From: Gelria sp. Kuro-4
GTDB taxonomy: Bacteria; Bacillota; DTU030; DUMP01
Direction of reading: 5' to 3'
Assembly: GCF_019668485.1 (NCBI RefSeq)
Contig: NZ_AP024619.1
Coordinates: 495,001-559,000, forward strand
DNA length: 64,000 nucleotides
Below the pieces are notes generated by a model that saw nothing but the letters and a program-made list of their open reading frames with translations, made no database searches and was not told the origin of the DNA. Position numbers and translations under genes: made by a program. Positions within the stretch are counted from its first letter, which is position 1. Every line of letters begins with the position of its first letter. This document shows positions 2,417-60,953 of this stretch, one piece after another.

Positions 2417-3358
2417 TTACCCGATATACACCCTCAGGTGCTGCAGTACCTTACCGTCAGCTGCACTCAGTACGAAAATGTGCCAGCAGGTCGGCTGCTC
2501 TTTTTCGTAGAGGGTGACTACCCATTTTCCCTGGCCCCCAGCGGTATCGAGCCGGGCGTTCGCGACTTCGGCCGGAACGCCCAGCTGCTCCTTCGCCAGG
2601 GCCACAGCGCGGTCCTGACTCAGGGGGACGGGCGCTGGGTTCTCGGTTCCGCTGTGGGCCAGGACGCTGCCGGTGTGCGCATCAATGTAGAACACATCGC
2701 TGTTGGGGATGCCCAGGCCGCTGCGGCTGAGCTTCACCTGCCAAACCAGTTTCCCGCGGTAGGTGGTAAGGGCGGCGGCATCCACTTGGGCCGGGTAGGA
2801 CACCTGAGCTCGGGCAATGGCCACGGCTGCGGCCCGGCTGAGGAGCACCGGCTCTTCATCCGCAGGCGGCGTGTTCCGACCGATGAGCTTGCCGGTGAAA
2901 GCATCCAGCGTCACCTGGTAGCGAGACCCGGAGCGCGCCAGGGTCACCTCCCAGGTGAGGGTATCCGGTGTAAGAACCAGGCCGGCCGAGAGCGGGTGAT
3001 ACCCGTAGCCGGCGAAGTTCTTGGCCAGGGTGAGCGCCTGGGCCTTGGAGATGGCGGCCGGCTTCAGTTTGCCGGCATCCAGCCAGCCCCACTCCACCGC
3101 CCGGCCGCTGCCGTCCACGGCGATATACACCCGGTCCTCGGGCCGGGCGCCTTCCTGGCGCAGCGATACGGTCCAGCGGTCGGAGCCGGTTACGTGCGAG
3201 GTAGCGGCAACTTCGGTGGGCCGGGCCACCTCTTTTTGGGCGACCTCAATGGCAGCGCTCCGGGAGAGCGCTCGGGCCGGCGCGGCCGCCACAGCGAGTC
3301 CGGAAAGAAGCAGCAGGCTGACGAGCAATGAGACGGTGGCTGTGATCCGTCGTATCAT
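2417..3358 (-). CDS. exported PepSY-domain protein
   Basis: A 313-residue protein read from an ATG at 3358 with AAGGAGG upstream; the open frame extends further upstream but without a ribosome-binding site. The N terminus (MIRRITATVSLLVSLLLLSG, ending AVAAAPA) is a signal peptide. The rest shows three or more PepSY-like repeats of the pattern SRxxAxxIAxxxV...W.V.L...G.....YIDAxTGxVL. PepSY domains often act as inhibitors or chaperones of secreted peptidases, but many stand-alone proteins like this have no assigned role. It is probably exported or membrane anchored. Confidence 0.8.
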   Translation of the reverse strand: MIRRITATVSLLVSLLLLSGLAVAAAPARALSRSAAIEVAQKEVARPTEVAATSHVTGSDRWTVSLRQEGARPEDRVYIAVDGSGRAVEWGWLDAGKLKPAAISKAQALTLAKNFAGYGYHPLSAGLVLTPDTLTWEVTLARSGSRYQVTLDAFTGKLIGRNTPPADEEPVLLSRAAAVAIARAQVSYPAQVDAAALTTYRGKLVWQVKLSRSGLGIPNSDVFYIDAHTGSVLAHSGTENPAPVPLSQDRAVALAKEQLGVPAEVANARLDTAGGQGKWVVTLYEKEQPTCWHIFVLSAADGKVLQHLRVYIG

Positions 3359-45588: not shown

Positions 45589-46251
45589 ATGTTCAGCGAC
45601 CGCCGCGCAGCCGGCGAACAGCTGGCCGTCGCTCTCGCCGAGGTGGCGAAGCCGGATCCGCTCATCCTGGCCGTTCCACGGGGCGGGGTGCCGGTGGCCT
45701 TCCCCGTGTGGCGGCGCCTGGGCGGCGACCTCGACATCATCCAACCGCGCAAAATAGGCAGCCCCTTTAATCCCGAGCTGGCCATCGGCGCCGTGGCCCC
45801 CGACGGTACCGAGCTCAGGGACGCTGCCCTCATTGCCCGTCTGGGCGTCGGCGAGGATTACCTGCGGCGCGAAGCGGCGCGCCAGGCGGCCGAGGCTGCG
45901 CGCCGCCTGCGCTTTTACCGCGGTGACCGTCCCCCGCCCCGTGTCGGCGGCCGGCATGTCATCCTCGTGGATGACGGCGTGGCCACCGGGATCACAGACC
46001 TGTTGGCCTTGCGTCTTCTGCGCCGGGACGGGCCGGCCAGCCTTACTCTGGCCGTCCCCGTGGGCCCCGCCGAGAGCATTGCGCGCCTTCGGGCTGTGGC
46101 CGATGAGGTGCTCTGCCTCGAGGAGCCGCCCGCCTTTCAGGCTGTGGGGGAGTACTACGCCGCTTTCCCACCGGTAAGTGACGACGAGGTGATCCGTCTC
46201 CTTAAGGCCGCCTGGGAAGACCCCGGCTCGCTCCCCGGGAATCCCCCTTGA
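45589..46251 (+). CDS. phosphoribosyltransferase domain protein
   Basis: A 220-residue type I PRTase-fold protein. The PRPP loop motif is VILVDDGVATGIT and the N-terminal block LILAVPRGGVPVAFPV is typical of this stand-alone subgroup. These proteins have no firm substrate; related ones are found next to erythromycin esterase or hydrolase domains, which are absent here. The start ATG follows AGGGGTGG. Its stop codon overlaps the -35 of the downstream lysine-riboswitch promoter. Confidence 0.8.
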   Translation: MFSDRRAAGEQLAVALAEVAKPDPLILAVPRGGVPVAFPVWRRLGGDLDIIQPRKIGSPFNPELAIGAVAPDGTELRDAALIARLGVGEDYLRREAARQAAEAARRLRFYRGDRPPPRVGGRHVILVDDGVATGITDLLALRLLRRDGPASLTLAVPVGPAESIARLRAVADEVLCLEEPPAFQAVGEYYAAFPPVSDDEVIRLLKAAWEDPGSLPGNPP

Positions 46252-46277
46252 CACCCCCGGATAATGAGCGGTAAGAT
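46248..46277 (+). promoter_or_regulatory. promoter of the lysine-riboswitch operon
   Basis: TTGACA (46248-46253), 18 nt, TAAGAT (46272-46277). Transcription would start about 55 nt before the riboswitch aptamer. Confidence 0.7.
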
Positions 46278-46338
46278 ATGAATTAAAAGAATAGTTGCCT
46301 CATCTCAGTCCTTGCTTGCGACGCGCTGTAGCGCTGAG

Positions 46339-46520
46339 GTGGGGTAGAGGCGCGGCAGGCCATGAGTAGCCGCCCAGAGCAGGGCAGCGGAGAAGGGCGG
46401 GGAAAGGGGCCGCCGCCGAAGCCGGGCGACCGCTCCAGGCGCCTGAGCTGGGTCGGCAGTTAAGAGCTGCCGGACTGTCACCTGCGGCCACCCCGGACCG
46501 CAGGTGGTGAGCTATCTCAC
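46339..46520 (+). promoter_or_regulatory. lysine riboswitch (L-box) aptamer
   Basis: The conserved lysine-aptamer core is present in order: GTAGAGGCGC at the 5' side, GAGTA (46364-46368), GGGGAAAGG (46399-46407), GCCGAAG (46415-46421), GCTGGG (46447-46452) and ACTGTCAC (46474-46481). The closing helix P1 is GTGGGGTAG (46339-46347) pairing with CTATCTCAC (46512-46520), and the 3' end GAGCTATCTC resembles the Bacillus subtilis lysC element. It precedes an oxidoreductase operon rather than the usual lysine biosynthesis or transport genes. Confidence 0.9.
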
Positions 46521-46557
46521 AGCTGGGGAGGGAGAGATGGGCTCAAGCGCCTATACG

Positions 46558-46584
46558 GCCAGGCCTGTCTGCCTGGCTGTTTTT
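46558..46584 (+). terminator. riboswitch-controlled terminator
   Basis: GCCAGGC/GCCTGGC stem with a 6-nt loop followed by TGTTTTT, 37 nt after the lysine aptamer and 60 nt before the first gene. It is the probable expression platform. Confidence 0.85.
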
Positions 46585-46645: not shown

Positions 46646-46963
46646 TTGCGCATAGAAGAACACCCCATCCTGGGCCCGCTGCCCGCGGCCCCGGTGGTTT
46701 GGATTGAGGTGGACGGCAAAAAGGTACCGGCCCGCGCCGGCGAACCCATCGCCGCCGCGCTTTTCGCCGCAGGCATCCGCGCCTTCCGCACCACCAAGCG
46801 GCGCGGCGAGCCGCGCGGCCCCTTCTGCGGCATCGGGCGCTGCACCGACTGCGTGATGACGGTGGACGGCGTCCCCAACGTCCGTACCTGCGTCACCCCG
46901 GTTCGGGCGGGCATGAAGGTGGAGACGCAAAGGGGGCTGGGGCAGTGGCCGGAGCGGAAGTGA
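46646..46963 (+). CDS. (2Fe-2S)-binding subunit of amino-acid dehydrogenase complex
   Basis: A 105-residue ferredoxin-like protein with CGIGRCTDCVMTVDGVPNVR followed by TCVTPV, the C-x4-C-x2-C-x11-C pattern of small [2Fe-2S] subunits found with HcnA/OoxA/SoxA-type flavin dehydrogenases. The TTG at 46646 is preferred over the ATG at 46625 because GGGGGAGG lies 5 nt upstream. It is the first gene after the lysine riboswitch and overlaps the next gene. Confidence 0.8.
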   Translation: MRIEEHPILGPLPAAPVVWIEVDGKKVPARAGEPIAAALFAAGIRAFRTTKRRGEPRGPFCGIGRCTDCVMTVDGVPNVRTCVTPVRAGMKVETQRGLGQWPERK

Positions 46964-48057
46964 CGGAGGTGGCCGTGGTGGGCGGCGGGCCCGCCGGGCT
47001 GTCGGCGGCCCTGGCCGCCCGCCGAGCCGGAGCGGACGTGGTGCTTATCGACGAAAACGCCGTGCCCGGCGGGCAGCTGCGCAAACAGATCCATAAATTT
47101 TTCGGTTCCCGGGCGCACCATGCCGGGGTGCGCGGCTTCCGCATCGCGGCCGAGTTGGGGGCCGCCTGCAGGGCCCAGGGCGTGGCCTTGTGGATGGATA
47201 CAGTGGCCTACGGCCTTTTTGACCACACCCTGGGCGTGGCCCGGGAGGGTACCACCTCCACCCTTACGGCGCGTTCCATTGTACTGGCCACCGGCGCCGG
47301 CGAAAACGCCCTGGCCTTTCCCGGCTGCACCCTGCCCGGGGTGATGGGCGCCGGGGCGGTGCAGACGTTCGTGAACCTCCACCGCGTGCTGCCGGGGCGG
47401 CGGGCGCTTATGGTGGGGGCCGGCAACGTCGGGCTGATCGTTTCTTACCAGCTCCTGCAGGCGGGGGCTGAGGTGCTGGGAGTGGTGGAGGCGGCGCCGC
47501 ACATCGGCGGCTACGCCGTCCATGCGGCGAAGCTCCGGCGCGCGGGCGTTCCCATCTGGACGCGGCACACGGTGCTGGCTGCCGCCGGCGGCCGAGAGCT
47601 CGAGGCGGTCACCATTGCGGCCCTGGATGACAACGGGCGGCCGGTGCGGGGCAGCGAACAGACGTTTGCGGTGGACCTCATCTGCCTGGCGGTAGGCTTA
47701 ACTCCGCTCACGGAGCTGGCGTGGCAGGCCGGGTGCCGCTTTGCATACTCCGGCCCCCTGGGCGGGCATGTACCGCTCCACAACGCCGACATGGAAACCA
47801 CCGTACCCGGCCTCTTTGTCGCCGGGGATGCGGCCGGCGTAGAGGAGGCCTCCACGGCCCTGGAGGAGGGGTGCCTGGCCGGCCTGGCGGCGGCGGCCTT
47901 CGCCGGCCGGGGCGGCCCGGAGCTGGAAGCGGAAAAGGAAGCGGCGCGCCGCAGGCTCGAAGCCCTGCGCAGCGGGCCCTTCGGCGGCGGGCGCCGGCGC
48001 GCCCAGGAGGAAATCGTGAAAGGGTGGCTCAAATGCAGCGGCGGCCGGTGGCAGTGA
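46945..48057 (+). CDS. FAD/NAD(P) oxidoreductase subunit (alpha) of amino-acid dehydrogenase complex
   Basis: A 370-residue pyridine-nucleotide-disulfide-oxidoreductase-fold protein: FAD motif VAVVGGGPAGLSAALAARRA at the N terminus, a second dinucleotide fold GRRALMVGAGNVGLIVSYQL near residue 150, and VPGLFVAGDAAGVEEA near the end. It resembles the alpha subunits of HcnABC, opine/D-hydroxyproline dehydrogenases and archaeal dye-linked L-proline dehydrogenase, where this subunit passes electrons on. The GTG start overlaps the preceding gene by 19 nt. Confidence 0.8.
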   Translation: MAGAEVTEVAVVGGGPAGLSAALAARRAGADVVLIDENAVPGGQLRKQIHKFFGSRAHHAGVRGFRIAAELGAACRAQGVALWMDTVAYGLFDHTLGVAREGTTSTLTARSIVLATGAGENALAFPGCTLPGVMGAGAVQTFVNLHRVLPGRRALMVGAGNVGLIVSYQLLQAGAEVLGVVEAAPHIGGYAVHAAKLRRAGVPIWTRHTVLAAAGGRELEAVTIAALDDNGRPVRGSEQTFAVDLICLAVGLTPLTELAWQAGCRFAYSGPLGGHVPLHNADMETTVPGLFVAGDAAGVEEASTALEEGCLAGLAAAAFAGRGGPELEAEKEAARRRLEALRSGPFGGGRRRAQEEIVKGWLKCSGGRWQ

Positions 48058-48458
48058 TCGAGTGTCCCGAGGAGATTCCCTGCAACCCTTGCGAGACGGC
48101 CTGTCCCCAGGGGGCCATCCAGGTGGGCGAGCCTATCACGGCCCGCCCGCGCCTGGACCCAGCCAAGTGCAGCGGCTGCGGCCTGTGCGTCGCCGCCTGC
48201 CCGGGCCTGGCCATTTTCCTGGTGAAGGAAGAGGGCGAGGCGGCCGAGGTGACCTTCCCCTACGAGTTCCTGCCGCTGCCTAAGGTGGGCGCTGTGGTGA
48301 CCGCCGTAGACCGTGAAGGCAGGGCGGTGGCGGCCGCTCCCGTGACGGCGGTGCGCCAGGTGCGCACCTCGGACGGCACCTGGCTGGTTACCCTGGCCGT
48401 ACCCAGTGCCCTGGCCGCGGAAGTGCGGGGGATGAGGAGGCTGAGCGATGAGAAATGA
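48033..48458 (+). CDS. 4Fe-4S ferredoxin-type subunit (delta-like)
   Basis: A 141-residue protein with two cysteine clusters, IPCNPCETACPQGAI and CSGCGLCVAACPGLAI, enough for one or two [4Fe-4S] clusters, plus a C-terminal beta-rich region without cysteines. It overlaps both neighbouring genes, so it is part of the same complex. Comparable small iron-sulfur subunits occur in four-subunit archaeal proline dehydrogenase. Confidence 0.8.
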   Translation: MQRRPVAVIECPEEIPCNPCETACPQGAIQVGEPITARPRLDPAKCSGCGLCVAACPGLAIFLVKEEGEAAEVTFPYEFLPLPKVGAVVTAVDREGRAVAAAPVTAVRQVRTSDGTWLVTLAVPSALAAEVRGMRRLSDEK

Positions 48459-48723
48459 CGACGATGTGATCATCTGCCGCTGCGAGGAGGTAACCAAGGG
48501 CGACATCCGGCGTGCCATCCGCGCCGGAGCGACCACGGTGAAAGCCATCAAAAAATTCACCCGGGCCGGCATGGGCCTCTGCCAGGGATGCACCTGCCGT
48601 CGCCTGATCATCCAGCTTCTCGCCCAGGAGACAGGCCAGAGCCCGGCCCAGATCCCCCCCGGCACTTACCGCCCGCCGACGCGCCCGCTGATGCTGGCCG
48701 GCCTGAAGGGGGAGAAGGCATGA
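48448..48723 (+). CDS. BFD-like [2Fe-2S] subunit (gamma-like)
   Basis: A 91-residue protein with the bacterioferritin-associated-ferredoxin pattern CRCEEVTKGDIRRAIRAGA and, about 35 residues on, GLCQGCTCRRLI. In related complexes this domain is a separate subunit, or is fused to the C terminus of the alpha subunit. The start overlaps the previous gene, and the stop overlaps the next start as ATGA. Confidence 0.85.
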   Translation: MRNDDDVIICRCEEVTKGDIRRAIRAGATTVKAIKKFTRAGMGLCQGCTCRRLIIQLLAQETGQSPAQIPPGTYRPPTRPLMLAGLKGEKA

Positions 48724-49922
48724 AGGCTCCGGATGTGGTGGTGGTGGGCGGCGGCGTTATTGGCACCGCCGTCACCTACTACCTGGCCAAGCAGGGCGCG
48801 GATGTTCTTCTTGTGGAGCGGGCGGAACTGGGCGCCGAGACGTCTTCCGCCTGCGACGGCTTTGTGATCCTCCAGTCGAAAAGCCCGGGGGTACACCTGT
48901 CGCTGGCCCTGGCGTCCGCGGAGCTGTATCGGGGCCTGGCGGACGAGCTGGAGTGGGATATTGAGTACAACAACTGCGGCGGGCTCATCGTCATTGAGCG
49001 CGAAGAAGAACTTCCGGCCATGCGCACCTTTATGGCCAAGCAACAGGCCATCGGCTTGGACGTGCGCCTCCTTTCCGGCGACGAGGCCCGCCGCTTGGAA
49101 CCCGCCCTGGCACCGCACATCGTGGGTGCCACCTACAGCCCCCAGGACAGCCAGGTGAATCCCTTGCAGGTGGTGCTGGGGTTCGCTCAGGCCGCAGCGC
49201 GGCTGGGGGCGACGCTGCGCCAGGGGACGCCGCTCGAGAGGCTGCGCCGCGCCGGCGGGCGCCTCAGCGCCGTGGTGGCGGGGGGAGAAGAGATCGCCGC
49301 GGGGGCGGTGGTGTTCGCCACGGGCGTTTTCACCCCGCAGCTCGTCGCCCCGCTCGGCTTGGAGCTGCCGCTGCGGCCGCGCCGCGGCCAGCTGGTGGTA
49401 ACGGAGCCGGCTCCGCCCTTGGTGCACCACATTTTCCTCTGTGCCCGCTACATCGCCGCCAAGTACCACCCGGAGCTGCTGGCGGCGGCGGAGGACGAGG
49501 CGCTGCGCCTGGGGGTGGGGCTGGCCCTGGAGCAAACGCAGAGCGGGGGCTTTCTCATCGGCAGCACGCGGGAATTTGTGGATTGGGATAAGGGGACCAC
49601 GCCGCTCGGCATCAGGGCAGTCGTCCGCCACGCCACCCGTATCATGCCGGCGCTGGCGAGGCTCCACGCCGTCCGCACTTTTGCCGGGCTCCGCCCGTAC
49701 ACCCCCGACGGCCTGCCCTTCCTCGGCAAAGCGCCGGGGTGGGAGAATCTCTACATTGCGGCGGGGCACGAGGGTGACGGGATCGCCCTGGCCCCCATCA
49801 CCGGCCGGCTGCTGGCGGAGCTCATCCTCAGCGGCCGAACGTCGTTTCCCCTGGCCGAGTTCGCCGTGGACCGCTTTGCCCGCGGCAAAGACCAGGGCGG
49901 GCAGCTGAAGGTCACGCCTTGA
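48720..49922 (+). CDS. DAO-family FAD amino-acid dehydrogenase subunit (beta, catalytic)
   Basis: A 400-residue D-amino-acid-oxidase-fold flavoprotein: FAD motif DVVVVGGGVIGTAVTYYLAK, ETSSACDGFVIL, and the C-terminal FAGLRPYTPDGLPFLGKAPG with GHEGDGIALAPITGRLLAEL. It belongs with the catalytic beta subunits of HcnC, OoxB, proline and D-hydroxyproline dehydrogenases, which oxidise the C-N bond of an amino acid and feed electrons to the partner subunits. The substrate is not visible; the lysine riboswitch upstream suggests lysine or a derivative. Last gene of the tightly overlapping five-gene set. Confidence 0.82.
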   Translation: MKAPDVVVVGGGVIGTAVTYYLAKQGADVLLVERAELGAETSSACDGFVILQSKSPGVHLSLALASAELYRGLADELEWDIEYNNCGGLIVIEREEELPAMRTFMAKQQAIGLDVRLLSGDEARRLEPALAPHIVGATYSPQDSQVNPLQVVLGFAQAAARLGATLRQGTPLERLRRAGGRLSAVVAGGEEIAAGAVVFATGVFTPQLVAPLGLELPLRPRRGQLVVTEPAPPLVHHIFLCARYIAAKYHPELLAAAEDEALRLGVGLALEQTQSGGFLIGSTREFVDWDKGTTPLGIRAVVRHATRIMPALARLHAVRTFAGLRPYTPDGLPFLGKAPGWENLYIAAGHEGDGIALAPITGRLLAELILSGRTSFPLAEFAVDRFARGKDQGGQLKVTP

Positions 49923-49962
49923 GCACCCAGCCGACGAAAGAAGATACTCTTTCGGCGCCGGT

Positions 49963-50024
49963 GATGCAGCGAAAGTTGTATCGCCCGTCGTTCGCGATCG
50001 GGGTCGGATCTCGCGCCCGACGGG
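49963..50024. repeat. repeat element copy A (hairpin) before the transporter gene
   Basis: A compound hairpin: CCCGTCG/CGACGGG outer stem, symmetric TT/CC internal loop, CGCGA/TCGCG inner stem, 13-nt loop. About 60 nt is clearly similar to a second copy near 55,349-55,410, including the CGCGATCnGGGTCGG core and the GCGCCC that follows. Both copies lie in 5' leaders of membrane transport genes. Confidence 0.6.
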
Positions 50025-50092
50025 AGAACCCTTTGTGCCGCCCGCACTTTTTATTCAAACGAGACCTGCAGTGGCGAGGAGGTGGTTGGCCC

Positions 50093-51439
50093 GTGTTGAG
50101 CGTCCTCATCCCGGTGGCGGCCCTGTTCCTGATTATCCTGATACCCCTTCCCAAAATCGGCGGGGAAGTGCGCCTGGGGCTTCTCACCGCCGCCTTCCTG
50201 GCTTTCCTCTTCGGCGGCGTGGCCCCGGGCGCGGCCCTCCTGGCGGCCATCGACGGCATCGACCGCATCGCCTGGGTGATCGGCCTTTCCATCTTCGGGA
50301 GCATTTATGCCCAGTCCCAGGTTAGCCTCGGCACCATGGACACTGTGCTCAACACCTTCCGCGCCCTCTTCGGCCGCTCGCCCAAGGGGCTCATCGCGGC
50401 GGTGCTCCTCACCCTGGTGCTGGCGGGGTCCCTCCTGGGTGACGCCATCGCCGCCGTCACGGTCATCGGGGTGCTGGTGGTGCTCTCCCTGGCGGAGCTG
50501 GGCCTCAGCCCCGAGGAGACAAGTGTCATCATCCTCCTGGGCGGTATCCTCGGTTCCATCATGCCGCCCATCACCCAGGCCTTCTTTCTAGCCGCCGGCC
50601 TGGTAGGTACGCCGGTCGACCCGGTGGTGAACACCGGCTACGTAACCGTGAGCCTCGGCGTCATCGTGGGCCTCTTCACCGTCTGGCGCTACGTGCGCAT
50701 CAAAGAATTGCCCGCCGAGCTTATCCCGGACCGGACGGCCGGCCGGATTCTGGCGCAGGAATGGCTGCGCCTTTTGCCCCTCGCCGTCCTGGCGGGCATT
50801 GTCGTGCTGCGGTCCGGCTTCAAGGTGGAACTGCTTAAGGTGCTGGACCCGCTGCTTCCTTTCGCGGGAGTCCCCATCGCCAAGGCTCTGACCAACCGCA
50901 TCATCCAGGCCATCATCGTGGCCACCCTGGTGGCCTTCACCTTCCGGCGCGTGCGCCGCGACGCGGGGACCATCTTCCGCAAGGGTCTGGCCGCCGTCTC
51001 TAAAACCGTACAGATCCAGCTCTGCGCCGGCGTCATGATCGGTGCCTTTTACGCCTCGGGCATGATCGACCAGGTGGTGGCCTTCACCAAGGGCCTCACA
51101 CCGGCGGCGCTTAAGCTGGGCGGCGGCGCAGCCATGCTCCTCCTGGGCATGCTCACCGGGTCGCAGACCACCGCGCAAAACACGCTGGTGCCCTTTCTAG
51201 GTCCCATCCTCACTCAAAACCTGGGTGTCGCCCCGGCCAAGGCGGCGCTCGGCGCGGCCCACCTGGCCATGGCCGGGCAGTCCATGCCGCCGGTGTGCCT
51301 GACCACCTTTGTGGTGGTAGGGATTGTCGGCGGTATCCTGGCCAAGAAGGTGGACCCGGTGCGGGTGATGCTGATGGCCCTCCCGGTTACCCTCTACTTC
51401 GCCCTGACGGGCCTGGCGGCCTGGTTCCAGCTGTTCTAG
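50093..51439 (+). CDS. DctM-like (IT superfamily) membrane transporter
   Basis: A 448-residue protein with 11-12 hydrophobic segments. Two related re-entrant motifs, GSIMPPITQAFFLAAGLVG and, in the second half, GSQTTAQNTLVPFLGP with AGQSMPPVCLTT, place it in the ion-transporter superfamily that includes TRAP large subunits (DctM). No small TRAP subunit or binding protein is nearby. A GTG at 50093 with GAGGAGGTGG upstream is chosen. By position it should move the substrate of the preceding dehydrogenase. Confidence 0.7.
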   Translation: MLSVLIPVAALFLIILIPLPKIGGEVRLGLLTAAFLAFLFGGVAPGAALLAAIDGIDRIAWVIGLSIFGSIYAQSQVSLGTMDTVLNTFRALFGRSPKGLIAAVLLTLVLAGSLLGDAIAAVTVIGVLVVLSLAELGLSPEETSVIILLGGILGSIMPPITQAFFLAAGLVGTPVDPVVNTGYVTVSLGVIVGLFTVWRYVRIKELPAELIPDRTAGRILAQEWLRLLPLAVLAGIVVLRSGFKVELLKVLDPLLPFAGVPIAKALTNRIIQAIIVATLVAFTFRRVRRDAGTIFRKGLAAVSKTVQIQLCAGVMIGAFYASGMIDQVVAFTKGLTPAALKLGGGAAMLLLGMLTGSQTTAQNTLVPFLGPILTQNLGVAPAKAALGAAHLAMAGQSMPPVCLTTFVVVGIVGGILAKKVDPVRVMLMALPVTLYFALTGLAAWFQLF

Positions 51440-51478: not shown

Positions 51479-52225
51479 ATGGCACTGATTGAGGGCGGTT
51501 ACACCAACTACGGCCAGGTCCTGGGAATCATCATGCTGGATACGCGTTTCCCGCGCCTCCCGGGCGATGTGGGCAACGCCGCCACCTTCCCATTTCCGGT
51601 GCGTTACCAGGTGGTTAAGGGTGCCTCACCGCTTAAGGTGGTTGAAGAGGCGGACCCGGCCCTGCTCACGCCCTTCATCGCGGCGGCGCAGGAACTTGAG
51701 GCCGCTGGGGTGCGCACCATCACCACGAGCTGCGGCTTTCTTGCCCTTTGGCAGGCGGAGCTTGCCGCCAGTGTGAAGGTCCCGCTCTTTACATCGAGCC
51801 TGCTGCAGGTGCCGCTGGCCTGGCGCCTCACCGGCGGGCGGCCGGTAGGCATCATCACCGCCCACGCACCGAGCCTCTCACCGCGCCACCTGGCCGCGGT
51901 GGGTGCAGAAGAAGTGCCGCACGTGATCTACGGGCTGGAGGAGGCCCCGGAGTTCACCCGCACGTTTATTCGGGGCGAAGCAACGCTGGATCCGGCGGCT
52001 GTCGAAAACGAGGTGCGCCACGCCGCCCGCCGGTTGGCTTCCGCTCACCCGGAGATCGGCTCCATCGTCCTCGAGTGCACCAACCTGCCGCCCTTTGCAC
52101 GCGCGGTGCAGGAGGAAAGCCGCCTTCCCGTGTTCGATATCGTGAGCCTGTGCCACCTGGTGGCGCGCGCCGGCGCGTGCTCTACCTACCCTCCCTTCGC
52201 CGGGTGGGCGGCTGTTTCCGGATAA
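51479..52225 (+). CDS. aspartate/glutamate racemase family protein
   Basis: A 248-residue Asp/Glu/hydantoin-racemase-superfamily protein. Both catalytic cysteines appear conserved: TTSCGFLALWQ and IVLECTNLPPFA. Such enzymes racemise amino acids without PLP, and some members have other lyase or isomerase roles. The ATG start has AAAGGAG upstream. It lies 39 nt after the transporter and could interconvert L- and D-forms of the substrate of the upstream dehydrogenase. Confidence 0.78.
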   Translation: MALIEGGYTNYGQVLGIIMLDTRFPRLPGDVGNAATFPFPVRYQVVKGASPLKVVEEADPALLTPFIAAAQELEAAGVRTITTSCGFLALWQAELAASVKVPLFTSSLLQVPLAWRLTGGRPVGIITAHAPSLSPRHLAAVGAEEVPHVIYGLEEAPEFTRTFIRGEATLDPAAVENEVRHAARRLASAHPEIGSIVLECTNLPPFARAVQEESRLPVFDIVSLCHLVARAGACSTYPPFAGWAAVSG

Positions 52226-52276
52226 AGCCGCGGGAGCGCGGAAAAGCTATCAGCAAGAACTGCGGGAGGTGGCTGT

Positions 52277-52525
52277 GTGGCAGAGAGGATCGCCGTCGAG
52301 GCCGGGCTGGACTACGTCAAAAAGTACCTGACCCGGCAAGGGTACGACGTGGTGGATCTCAGCGGCAGACAGGAAGACGCCGCGGCCGTGGTGATAAGCG
52401 GGCAGGATGACTCCTTCTTGGGCATGGCCGACCGCACCACGGCCGTCCCGGTGATTTCCGCCGAAGGGCGGACCCCGGAGGAGGTCCTGACAGACATCAA
52501 AGAACGCCTGGACAAGGCCAGATGA
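52277..52525 (+). CDS. UPF0180 (YkuS-like) protein
   Basis: An 82-residue small soluble protein with AGLDYVKKYLTRQGYDVVDL and VVISGQDDSFLGMADRTTAV, matching the UPF0180/YkuS family of unknown function. The GTG start has GGGAGGTGG upstream. It ends the segment before a strong terminator. Confidence 0.75.
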   Translation: MAERIAVEAGLDYVKKYLTRQGYDVVDLSGRQEDAAAVVISGQDDSFLGMADRTTAVPVISAEGRTPEEVLTDIKERLDKAR

Positions 52526-52556: not shown

Positions 52557-52625
52557 CCCGCCCCGGTGCGCCGGGAGCAGGAAAGCCGGGCCGGGCGCCG
52601 AAAGGGAAATTTAGGGGGGATTGCC

Positions 52626-53741
52626 GTGCTTATTGCTGTACCCCGGGAAAGGGTGCCGGGGGAACTCAGGGTGGCCGTGGTGCCGAACGGGGCGGCGGCA
52701 CTTACGCGCCTGGGACACCGCGTCCTGGTGGAGGAAGGCGCCGGTGCCGGGAGCGGCTGGAGCGACGCCGAGTATGCCGCGGCCGGTGCGGAGGTGGTGA
52801 GCGACCTGGCCGCACTTTACCGGGCGGCCGAGGTGATCGTTAAGGTAAAGGAGCCGGTGGAGGAGGAAGTGGAACTTCTCCGGGCCGGGCAGGTGCTGCT
52901 CGCTTTCCTCATGTTCAGCAAAAACCGCCCGCTCCTGAAGGCGCTCCTTCAAAAACAGGCGGTGGGGCTGGGCTGGGAAAAGGTTCAGGGCGCAGGCGGC
53001 GTCCGCCCGGTGCTGGCTGCCATGAGCGAGATCTCGGGGCAGGCCGCTGTCCTCGTGGCCGCCGACCTTTTGCGCACGGACCGCGGTGGCCCCGGCCTGC
53101 TGCTCGGCGGGGTGAGCGGCCTGCTGTCGCCCCGCGTGGTCATCCTTGGCCCGGGCCGGGTGGGGCGGGCGGCCGCGCGCGCCGCCGCGGGGCTGGGGGC
53201 TCAGGTCGTCCTGGTAGGGCACAGCCTGGAGCAGGCGCGGGCGCTCCAAGGGGAGCTGCCGCCCGGCGTCGCCACCGTGGTGGCGCAGGGTGACGCGCTG
53301 GCGCGCTGCCTGGCCGGCTGTCAGGTGCTCATCAACACCGTCACCCTGGGCCCGGGGGAGCGGGGGGAACACCTGGTTGCCCGCGCTGACCTGAAGCTCC
53401 TGGCGCCGGGCGCCGTCATCATCGATGTGGCCGTGGACGAGGGCGGCGCTGTCGAGACCAGCCGTCTCACCACCTGGGACGATCCCATCTATGTGGAAGA
53501 GGGCGTGCGGCACCTGGCCGTTCCCAACCTGCCGGCGCGCTTTCCGCGCACCGCCACCACCGCGCTCGCCACGGTGGTCTTACCCTATCTCAAGGCCATC
53601 GCCGCCGCCGGCTGGCGCGCGGCCCTGCGGGCCGATGCCGGCCTTAGGGCGGGCCTCGCCTGCGTGGACGGGCGCCTCACCGATGAACGGGCCGCCCGCC
53701 TCTACGGGCTTACCTTTCACCCGGCCGAGGATGAGGTGTAA
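52626..53741 (+). CDS. alanine-dehydrogenase-family protein with altered active site
   Basis: A 371-residue member of the alanine dehydrogenase/PNT family: IAVPRERVPGELRVAVVP, the substrate lysine block EVIVKVKEPVEEEV, LLLGGVSGLLSPRVVILGPG for NAD binding, and VIIDVAVDEGGAVETS. The block that normally reads FTYLHLA reads LAFLMFSKN here, so Met96 occupies the position of the catalytic His. The substrate or activity may therefore differ from L-alanine deamination. The GTG start has GGGGGG 6 nt upstream. Confidence 0.75.
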   Translation: MLIAVPRERVPGELRVAVVPNGAAALTRLGHRVLVEEGAGAGSGWSDAEYAAAGAEVVSDLAALYRAAEVIVKVKEPVEEEVELLRAGQVLLAFLMFSKNRPLLKALLQKQAVGLGWEKVQGAGGVRPVLAAMSEISGQAAVLVAADLLRTDRGGPGLLLGGVSGLLSPRVVILGPGRVGRAAARAAAGLGAQVVLVGHSLEQARALQGELPPGVATVVAQGDALARCLAGCQVLINTVTLGPGERGEHLVARADLKLLAPGAVIIDVAVDEGGAVETSRLTTWDDPIYVEEGVRHLAVPNLPARFPRTATTALATVVLPYLKAIAAAGWRAALRADAGLRAGLACVDGRLTDERAARLYGLTFHPAEDEV

Positions 53742-59173: not shown

Positions 59174-59222
59174 GAAACCGGTGGCAAAGCTTGGACAATA
59201 AGGAATACTTATACCGGATGAA

Positions 59223-59411
59223 CTGCGGGGGAGAGTCCGCAAGGCGCCGAAGGAGCAAGGCCGGTAGCGCTACTTACCCGGCTGAACCTCTCAGGTACAA
59301 GTACCTCGCAGGGAAGGTTCCCTGGAGAGACCCATAAGCAGCAGGATGCCACGGGCTCGGGCGCCGAAGGGGTAACCTCGGGCGAGGAAATCTCTCAGGC
59401 CAAAGGACAGG
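59223..59411 (+). promoter_or_regulatory. tandem glycine riboswitch
   Basis: Two consecutive glycine aptamers. The first: GGGGGAGAGTCCGC, GCGCCGAAGGAGCAAG, then AACCTCTCAGGTACAAGTAC. The second: CTGGAGAGACCC, GGGCGCCGAAGGGGTAACC, then AATCTCTCAGGCCAAAGGAC. The end of the second aptamer overlaps the 5' arm of the terminator at 59406, so glycine binding should prevent termination (an ON switch), matching glycine reductase induction. Confidence 0.96.
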
Positions 59412-59457
59412 GAGTAAGTAGCGGGGGTAGCCTCGCGACTTGCTTCCTGTCTTTTTT
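59406..59457 (+). terminator. terminator of the glycine riboswitch
   Basis: GACAGGGAGTAAGT pairs with ACTTGCTTCCTGTC (two wobble positions) across an 18-nt loop and is followed by TTTTTT. Confidence 0.9.
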
Positions 59458-59517
59458 GGTAGCCAGGGACCGAACCCGGGCGAAGGGTGCGGGCGCGCGA
59501 AAGGGAGTGACCCCGGC

Positions 59518-59901
59518 GTGGAGTTTCTCGCTGTTACCAATAACCCCGCTGTTAAAGAAAAATACCCCCACCTAAACCTTGTGCGGGTGGAGGGAGGTGT
59601 AGAGGAGGTGTTTCGCCGCGCGCGCGACTTGGTCCACCAGGGTTACCGCCTGCTCACGCATCCTCTCGCCAGCAGCCTGAAACCGGGGCGCATACCCTTT
59701 AAAACGGTGGTGCTCACCGCTGCACCGGAGCAGGCGGTGGACCTCGAGTCGCTGGAGCTTATGGCGGCGGCCGCGGAGGCCCTGGCCAAAACCAGGCCCG
59801 CCTGGGCCCTTACCATCCCAGACCAGGTGGCGGCCGACTATGCGCTGGTGGACCTGTCCATCTTTGAGAGCGCGCTCGAGAGCCTAAGAGACGCGCCCTG
59901 A
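59518..59901 (+). CDS. grdX: GrdX family protein
   Basis: A 127-residue GrdX protein (MEFLAVTNNPAVKEKYPHLN start; GYRLLTHPLASSLKPGRIPF in the middle). GrdX is regularly the first gene of glycine reductase operons; its exact role is unknown. The GTG at 59518 with AAAGGGAGTGA upstream fits the homologous start. It is directly controlled by the tandem glycine riboswitch. Confidence 0.9.
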   Translation: MEFLAVTNNPAVKEKYPHLNLVRVEGGVEEVFRRARDLVHQGYRLLTHPLASSLKPGRIPFKTVVLTAAPEQAVDLESLELMAAAAEALAKTRPAWALTIPDQVAADYALVDLSIFESALESLRDAP

Positions 59902-60032
59902 CGGCCTGTAGGGGCCGCCGGCGGTATAAAACGGTGGACGAAGGGTAAACCTGATCCCGATTGAGACAGGAAGCCGCGGCACTCGTTACCGGACTGATTA
60001 AGCCGACGCCGAAAGAGCAAGGAGGGAAGTTT

Positions 60033-60953
60033 GTGAGTACATACGACGTACTCATCATCGGGGGCGGTCCGGCGGGCCTGACGGCCGGCCTCTACGCCGG
60101 TCGCGCCAAACTGAGGACCCTGCTCCTCGAGCAGATGCTGGCGGGCGGGCAGGCCGCCACCACCGACCTCATCGAGAACTACCCCGGGGCGCCGGAAGGG
60201 GCCACCGGCCCCGAACTCACCGAGCGCATGGAGGAACAGGCGAAAAAGTTCGGGGTGGAATTCCGCATGGCCCAGGTTACCGGCGTGGACTTCAGCGGGC
60301 GCGAGAAAAAGGTGCTGACCAGCGAAGGGGAGTACACGGCCAAGGCGGTCATCATCGCCAGCGGGGCCACCCACAAGAAGCTCGGCTGCCCGGGCGAAGC
60401 AGAGTTCACCGGCCGGGGCGTTTCCTACTGCGCTACCTGTGACGGGGCCTTTTACGAGGACCTGCCGGTGGCGGTGGTGGGCGGCGGCGACTCGGCCATC
60501 ACCGAGGCGCTCTTTCTCACCAAGTTTGCCAGCCGCGTCTATGTGATCCACCGGCGCGACGCCCTGCGCGCCACCAAGGTGGTCCAGGACAAAGCCTTTG
60601 CCGAACCGAAGATCGAGTTTGTCTGGAACAGCGTGGTGGCCGAGGTTAAAGGGAGCGATATGGTGGAGGCCGTGCGGGTAAAGAACGTCAAGACTGGCGC
60701 GCTCCAGGACCTTCCCGTAAAGGGCGTCTTCATCTACGTCGGGCTGGTGCCCAACACCGACTTTCTCAAAGGCCAGGTGCGCCTCGATGAGCGCGGTTAC
60801 ATCCCCGTGACGGCCAATATGGAAACGAATGTGCCCGGGGTGTTCGCCGCCGGCGACGTCACGGTGAAGCTCCTGCGCCAGGCGGTCACCGCGGTGGGCG
60901 ACGGCGCCACCGCCGCCGTCGCCGCCGAGCGCTACATCGAGGAAAACTTCTGA
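60033..60953 (+). CDS. trxB: thioredoxin reductase
   Basis: A 306-residue low-Mr thioredoxin reductase. FAD motif YDVLIIGGGPAGLTAGLYAG, redox pair in SYCATCDGAFYE, NADPH-type motif VAVVGGGDSAITEALFL, and NVPGVFAAGDVTVKLLRQ near the C terminus. The GTG start has AAGGAGG 7 nt upstream. In this operon it reduces the thioredoxin that drives glycine reductase. Confidence 0.96.
   Translation: MSTYDVLIIGGGPAGLTAGLYAGRAKLRTLLLEQMLAGGQAATTDLIENYPGAPEGATGPELTERMEEQAKKFGVEFRMAQVTGVDFSGREKKVLTSEGEYTAKAVIIASGATHKKLGCPGEAEFTGRGVSYCATCDGAFYEDLPVAVVGGGDSAITEALFLTKFASRVYVIHRRDALRATKVVQDKAFAEPKIEFVWNSVVAEVKGSDMVEAVRVKNVKTGALQDLPVKGVFIYVGLVPNTDFLKGQVRLDERGYIPVTANMETNVPGVFAAGDVTVKLLRQAVTAVGDGATAAVAAERYIEENF

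Follow-up and report, generated by a model that had tools for sequence, protein, structure and literature searches.

The window, by which we mean the whole stretch of 64,000 nucleotides that was analysed, carries on its forward strand an operon that is preceded by a lysine riboswitch. The first gene encodes a [2Fe-2S] Fer2_4 subunit (gamma, HcnA/OdhC-like; 46646-46963), for which TTG 46646 is the likely start and ATG 46625 an alternative. It is followed on the same strand by genes for an FAD/NAD-binding subunit (alpha; HcnB, SoxA N-terminal-like; 46945-48057), a 4Fe-4S ferredoxin-like subunit (delta; 48033-48458), a small cysteine-cluster protein (ICRCEE...CQG; 48448-48723) to which we assigned a BFD-type [2Fe-2S] domain by eye, a DAO-family FAD subunit (beta; glycine oxidase, opine or D-amino-acid dehydrogenase-like; 48720-49922), a DctM-like membrane transporter (49919-51439) and a protein of the Asp/Glu racemase superfamily (PRK07475 subfamily; 51479-52225). 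Judging from the encoded proteins, the operon is predicted to combine a heteromeric flavin dehydrogenase of the amino-acid or opine type with a racemase and a transporter. The genes for the racemase and for an alanine-dehydrogenase-like protein (52566-53741) are separated by one for a small UPF0180 protein (52274-52512), which may or may not be part of the operon.

Upstream of the operon, we found a sigma-70-type promoter on the forward strand (TTGACA-18-TAAGAT, 46248-46277) that has 10 of 12 matches, where 0.0 are expected in shuffles; transcription is expected to start at about 46285. The aptamer follows on the same strand at 46337-46522 as a full-length match to RF00168 (model positions 1-182), with 90.8 bits compared to a gathering score of 30 and an E-value of 1.4e-22. 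Its P1 helix pairs 46342-46347 with 46512-46517 and can lengthen to 46339-46347 with 46512-46520. An intrinsic terminator of -18.7 kcal/mol lies on the forward strand at 46555-46584, consisting of a 10-bp stem (46555-46580) and a U tract (46580-46584). A preliminary description of this locus had reported both the aptamer and the terminator; both are present, but the terminator starts at 46555 and not at 46558. The promoter, the lysine aptamer and the strong terminator are real, and they occur together in one leader 5' of the first gene, as in a transcription-terminating riboswitch. The window leader adds a new member to the family of lysine riboswitches, and we found no precedent for this association of riboswitch and operon in the papers that we consulted.

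The genome (2.88 Mb, one contig) contains five lysine riboswitches, every one of them above the cut-off. Apart from that of the window, one each lies before lysA, before an NhaC-type transporter, before a YfcC-type transporter that is followed by an M20 peptidase-like ORF, and before the pair of an APC permease and an amidohydrolase. The association between the window leader and its operon extends to at least three further genomes (G001, G002 and G005); it is conserved and therefore not due to chance. In G007 and G004, the leaders of the orthologous operons (L069, ~nt 300-560, and L070, ~nt 3090-3250, both in reverse complement) keep the promoter and the terminator and have no lysine aptamer, which may reflect loss, gain or another form of control.

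Competing strands in the leader

We agree with the preliminary description that the sign of regulation is not readable from the aptamer alone, and that the sequence which separates the aptamer from the terminator (GAGGGAGAGATGGGCTC) takes part in an alternative fold. This sequence provides a purine stretch (the A' strand, 46528-46543, forward strand) that acts as the output selector in the predicted folds and for which three partners compete: the P1 3' strand, the terminator 5' arm with its loop, and an A box that precedes the aptamer (GCCUCAUCUCAGUCCUU with the core CCUCAUCUC, 46297-46313, forward strand), which was absent from the preliminary description. There are four strands in competition in the window leader, and the P1 3' strand is similar to the A box. 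According to the predicted folds, the A box pairs with the P1 5' strand (46334-46344) as long as the leader is free, and in the lysine-bound state its partner is the purine stretch (46528-46542). The predicted antiterminator (46535-46570, forward strand) comprises an outer helix of 46535-46543 with 46562-46570 and an inner pairing of GCC (46549-46551) with GGC (46557-46559), and it is mutually exclusive with the terminator.

Based on these elements, we infer lysine binding, an order of folding and an output sign: the window leader is probably an OFF switch that acts by transcription termination. When lysine is absent, the A box would be held by the P1 5' strand. The antiterminator would then arise by pairing of 46535-46543 and the GCC with the 5' arm and loop of the terminator, which would lead to read-through into the operon. 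When lysine is present, formation of P1 would displace the A box, and the freed A box would capture the purine stretch, so that the antiterminator would be blocked and the terminator would end transcription. This sign is a bioinformatic call for the window leader and not a measurement.

The strands involved are conserved. We found the A box in 46 leaders from 26 genomes, with many Bacillota among them, and four genomes from two genera have conserved the aptamer together with the A box, the purine stretch and the strands of the antiterminator. In five of the six leaders of the window type, the outer helix of the antiterminator pairs GGAUGGGCU (AGAUGGGCU in the window) with GGCCUGUCU; the sixth, in G005, has a variant helix of UGGGCC with GGCCUA. 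Furthermore, the A box and the purine stretch covary across the group. In a permutation test that drew on the 46 leaders and used one leader for each of the 26 genomes, the cognate pairing was better than permuted pairings (62 of 10,000 permutations were as good), whereas covariation between the P1 3' strand and the purine stretch was absent in the same 26 genomes (2211 of 10,000 permutations as good). When only the 27 closest leaders were used, the pairing of A box and purine stretch showed a weak trend (328 of 5000 permutations), and within family f1 the pairing of P1 3' strand and purine stretch scored better (113 of 5000 permutations). The duplex of A box and purine stretch is the stronger of the two in all 27 close leaders, with -23.2 compared to -15.5 kcal/mol in the window. 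In the NhaC-type leaders of the same group, a U tract directly follows the helix of A box and purine stretch, whereas the window leader has a separate terminator hairpin; in the NhaC-type leaders the helix therefore reads as a repressing structure.

The duplex of P1 3' strand and purine stretch could also produce the opposite output through a relay, which we consider unlikely. The P1 3' strand and J5/1 would then pair with the purine stretch and the GCC when lysine is absent, so that no antiterminator forms and transcription terminates. When lysine is present, P1 would release the purine stretch and the GCC, and the antiterminator would form and the operon would be expressed. The hairpin of P1 3' strand and purine stretch is dominant in the unbound full-length fold of the window leader (8.9 pairs), where it would itself block the antiterminator, and in the window it is stronger than in shuffled sequences (z -3.2). 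By eye, a J5/1 of GGUG accompanies a downstream CGCC or UGCC in six leaders, and GAUG accompanies CAUU. However, the A box that is freed in the bound state should capture the purine stretch in the stronger duplex and again block the antiterminator, and the lack of covariation reported above also argues against such a relayed ON switch.

Folding models of the switch

To compare the free and the bound state, we used constrained folds with a forced neutral hairpin. The Langdon energy parameters yielded the same figures as those of Andronescu and were set aside. At 37 C and just before closure of the terminator, the probability of the antiterminator in the unbound and bound state was 0.79 and 0.04 in the window, 0.76 and 0.18 in G001, 0.98 and 0.00 in G002, and 0.92 and 0.01 in G005. 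Imposing P1 thus lowers this probability in all four window-type leaders at 37 C, by a metric that misjudges some presumed OFF controls. For the full-length window leader, the probability is at most 0.33 unbound and 0.03 bound. At 50-60 C, the preference of the antiterminator for the unbound state fades or reverses at some lengths; at early lengths, the antiterminator is slightly more probable in the bound state in the window and in G001, as a relayed ON switch would predict.

We calibrated a similar sign metric on control leaders. Eleven distant control leaders precede lysA or dapB according to their downstream reading frames, and repression by lysine is expected there. The metric had the positive sign of an OFF switch for 10 of 11 lysA controls and for all four window-type leaders, and it was wrong in four of seven dapB controls, which are presumed to be OFF. 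It was negative in one of two permease leaders: the permease leader of the window's genome (G000) shows almost no difference in the antiterminator between the unbound and bound states and has the opposite sign in the control-calibrated metric, which is a further point for the relayed ON switch. We consider the metric imperfect, supportive of the OFF sign rather than decisive.

The preliminary description had proposed to fold the leader with and without P1. Such folds do reveal alternative structures, but the complete terminator of the full-length leader has an equilibrium probability of 1.0 in both states, so that the fold gives no sign. We thus rejected the equilibrium fold of the complete leader as a sign test. 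With a complete terminator that is stable either way, only a kinetic switch would work. In the window as well as in G001 and G002, the local minimum free energy structure before the terminator is the antiterminator, and its conversion into the terminator faces a path barrier of 15-21 kcal/mol. This modelled barrier is consistent with an antiterminator that persists through the termination decision, which would be its only route of action. Compared to shuffles, the antiterminator is weakly supported in single sequences (z -0.2 to -2.0). We also rejected the terminator loop as a copy of the A box, which was not significant for the window (p 0.37), and an antiterminator of 46519-46527 with the terminator 3' arm, which is present in the window and unconserved in the orthologues.

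The same equilibrium result would fit a leader that does not switch effectively, where the terminator forms whether lysine is present or not, expression stays at a nearly constant low level and control lies elsewhere. The orthologous operons of G004 and G007, which keep the terminator without the aptamer, point in the same direction. Nevertheless, joint conservation of the aptamer and the switching strands in four genomes from two genera is not what one expects of a dead switch, and we consider this explanation highly improbable.

Comparison to leaders of known layout

ON lysine riboswitches before lysine degradation genes have been published as predictions (PMC5584792, PMC2258182). The preliminary description had referred to such cases, and they lend some plausibility to an ON switch in the window. 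One genome in our data set, G041, contains the only true degradation leader that we found (L109). It lies before kal, kce and kdd, all three of which score above the NCBIfam cut-offs. There, the P1 3' strand forms the terminator 5' arm, and the probability of the terminator is 0.98 without P1 and 0.00 with P1; by these folds, the leader has a true, textbook ON layout. Both this leader and the window leader combine a lysine aptamer with an intrinsic terminator. However, the G041 leader has no A box and includes the P1 3' strand in its terminator, whereas the window leader has an A box, its P1 3' strand ends at 46517-46520, and its terminator begins at 46555, ~33 nt past P1. The genuine lysine-fermentation leader thus uses a different and direct layout, which speaks against a relayed ON switch in the window.

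A second leader in G041 (L110) precedes an APC permease and an amidohydrolase. Here, the probability of the terminator is 0.13 without P1 and 0.95 with P1, so that the folds describe a clear OFF switch. The permease and the amidohydrolase are 50% and 36% identical to their homologues downstream of one of the leaders in the window's genome (L002/L087, G000:C1:975604-975789, 5' of genes for an APC amino-acid permease and a protein of the Amidohydro_3 type), and this leader has a platform that is nearly identical to that of the window leader. The OFF output of the homologous permease operon in G041 is a further argument against the relayed ON switch. The two G041 leaders lie ~16 kb apart on contig C9 and form a good calibration pair of an ON and an OFF lysine leader. 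The gene content behind L002 suggests uptake of N-acyl-lysine or a lysine derivative.

The window leader also resembles the OFF-type L boxes of lysA and dapB leaders in Bacillota, with which it shares the aptamer family, the upstream A box and the downstream purine stretch. Those leaders control biosynthesis, whereas the window leader controls an operon of oxidoreductase, transporter and racemase genes. The preliminary description had leaned towards an ON switch. We come to the opposite view, as the window leader does not have the direct ON layout of G041, and its layout of A box, antiterminator and terminator is that of biosynthetic leaders and is common to a permease operon whose G041 homologue is predicted to be OFF. 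In C. difficile, lysine riboswitches are found before NhaC-type and YfcC transporters, the latter followed by an M20 peptidase-like ORF (PMC11477304). The window's genome has the same types of leaders and the same order of YfcC and M20 peptidase-like ORF, and both leaders contain the A box of the window. The A-box platform is common to many leaders in Bacillota and allows the sign to be judged from the sequence in a simple way: a terminator that overlaps P1, compared to a purine stretch that is common to the A box and the antiterminator.

Possible substrates of the operon

The operon resembles the OdhABC-type opine and D-hydroxyproline dehydrogenases, in which a DAO subunit (beta), an FAD subunit (alpha) and a [2Fe-2S] subunit (gamma) likewise occur in tandem and for which lysopine was proposed by the authors as a possible substrate (PMC4575208). 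Beyond these subunits, the window operon includes the 4Fe-4S protein, the small cysteine-cluster protein, the DctM-like transporter and the Asp/Glu-type racemase. Dethiosulfatibacter has a similar operon that lacks a lysine riboswitch. In G090, a related DAO gene adjoins a gene of the DHDPS family, a context that would be expected of a hydroxyproline pathway.

The preliminary description had presumed that the operon is lysine-catabolic. The lysine degradation genes kal, kce, kdd and kamA are not in the window operon, and BKACE/Kce was not found in the window's genome. Two KamA-like genes that lie near each other (G000:C1:880039-885686) score as glutamate 2,3-aminomutase, just under the cut-off of that family. 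Because Kce is absent and both KamA-like genes score in this way, lysine catabolism by the operon is possible but unproven. In particular, an indirect relayed ON switch that activates lysine breakdown by racemase and D-amino-acid dehydrogenase, a route not previously tied to a riboswitch, seems to us quite doubtful. If the switch were ON, the operon would represent a new route of lysine degradation, controlled by a relay of an unusual kind. If it is OFF, as we prefer, the operon more likely obtains lysine, for instance from a lysine-derived opine or D-lysine, than burns it, which would provide a concrete substrate hypothesis for a conserved, uncharacterised operon of dehydrogenase, racemase and transporter.

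Lastly, the same window contains a tandem glycine riboswitch (59218-59414) before genes for GrdX (59440-59901) and a thioredoxin reductase (59961-60953). This context fits the expectation for a glycine reductase (Stickland) operon, and the riboswitch is likely an ON switch.
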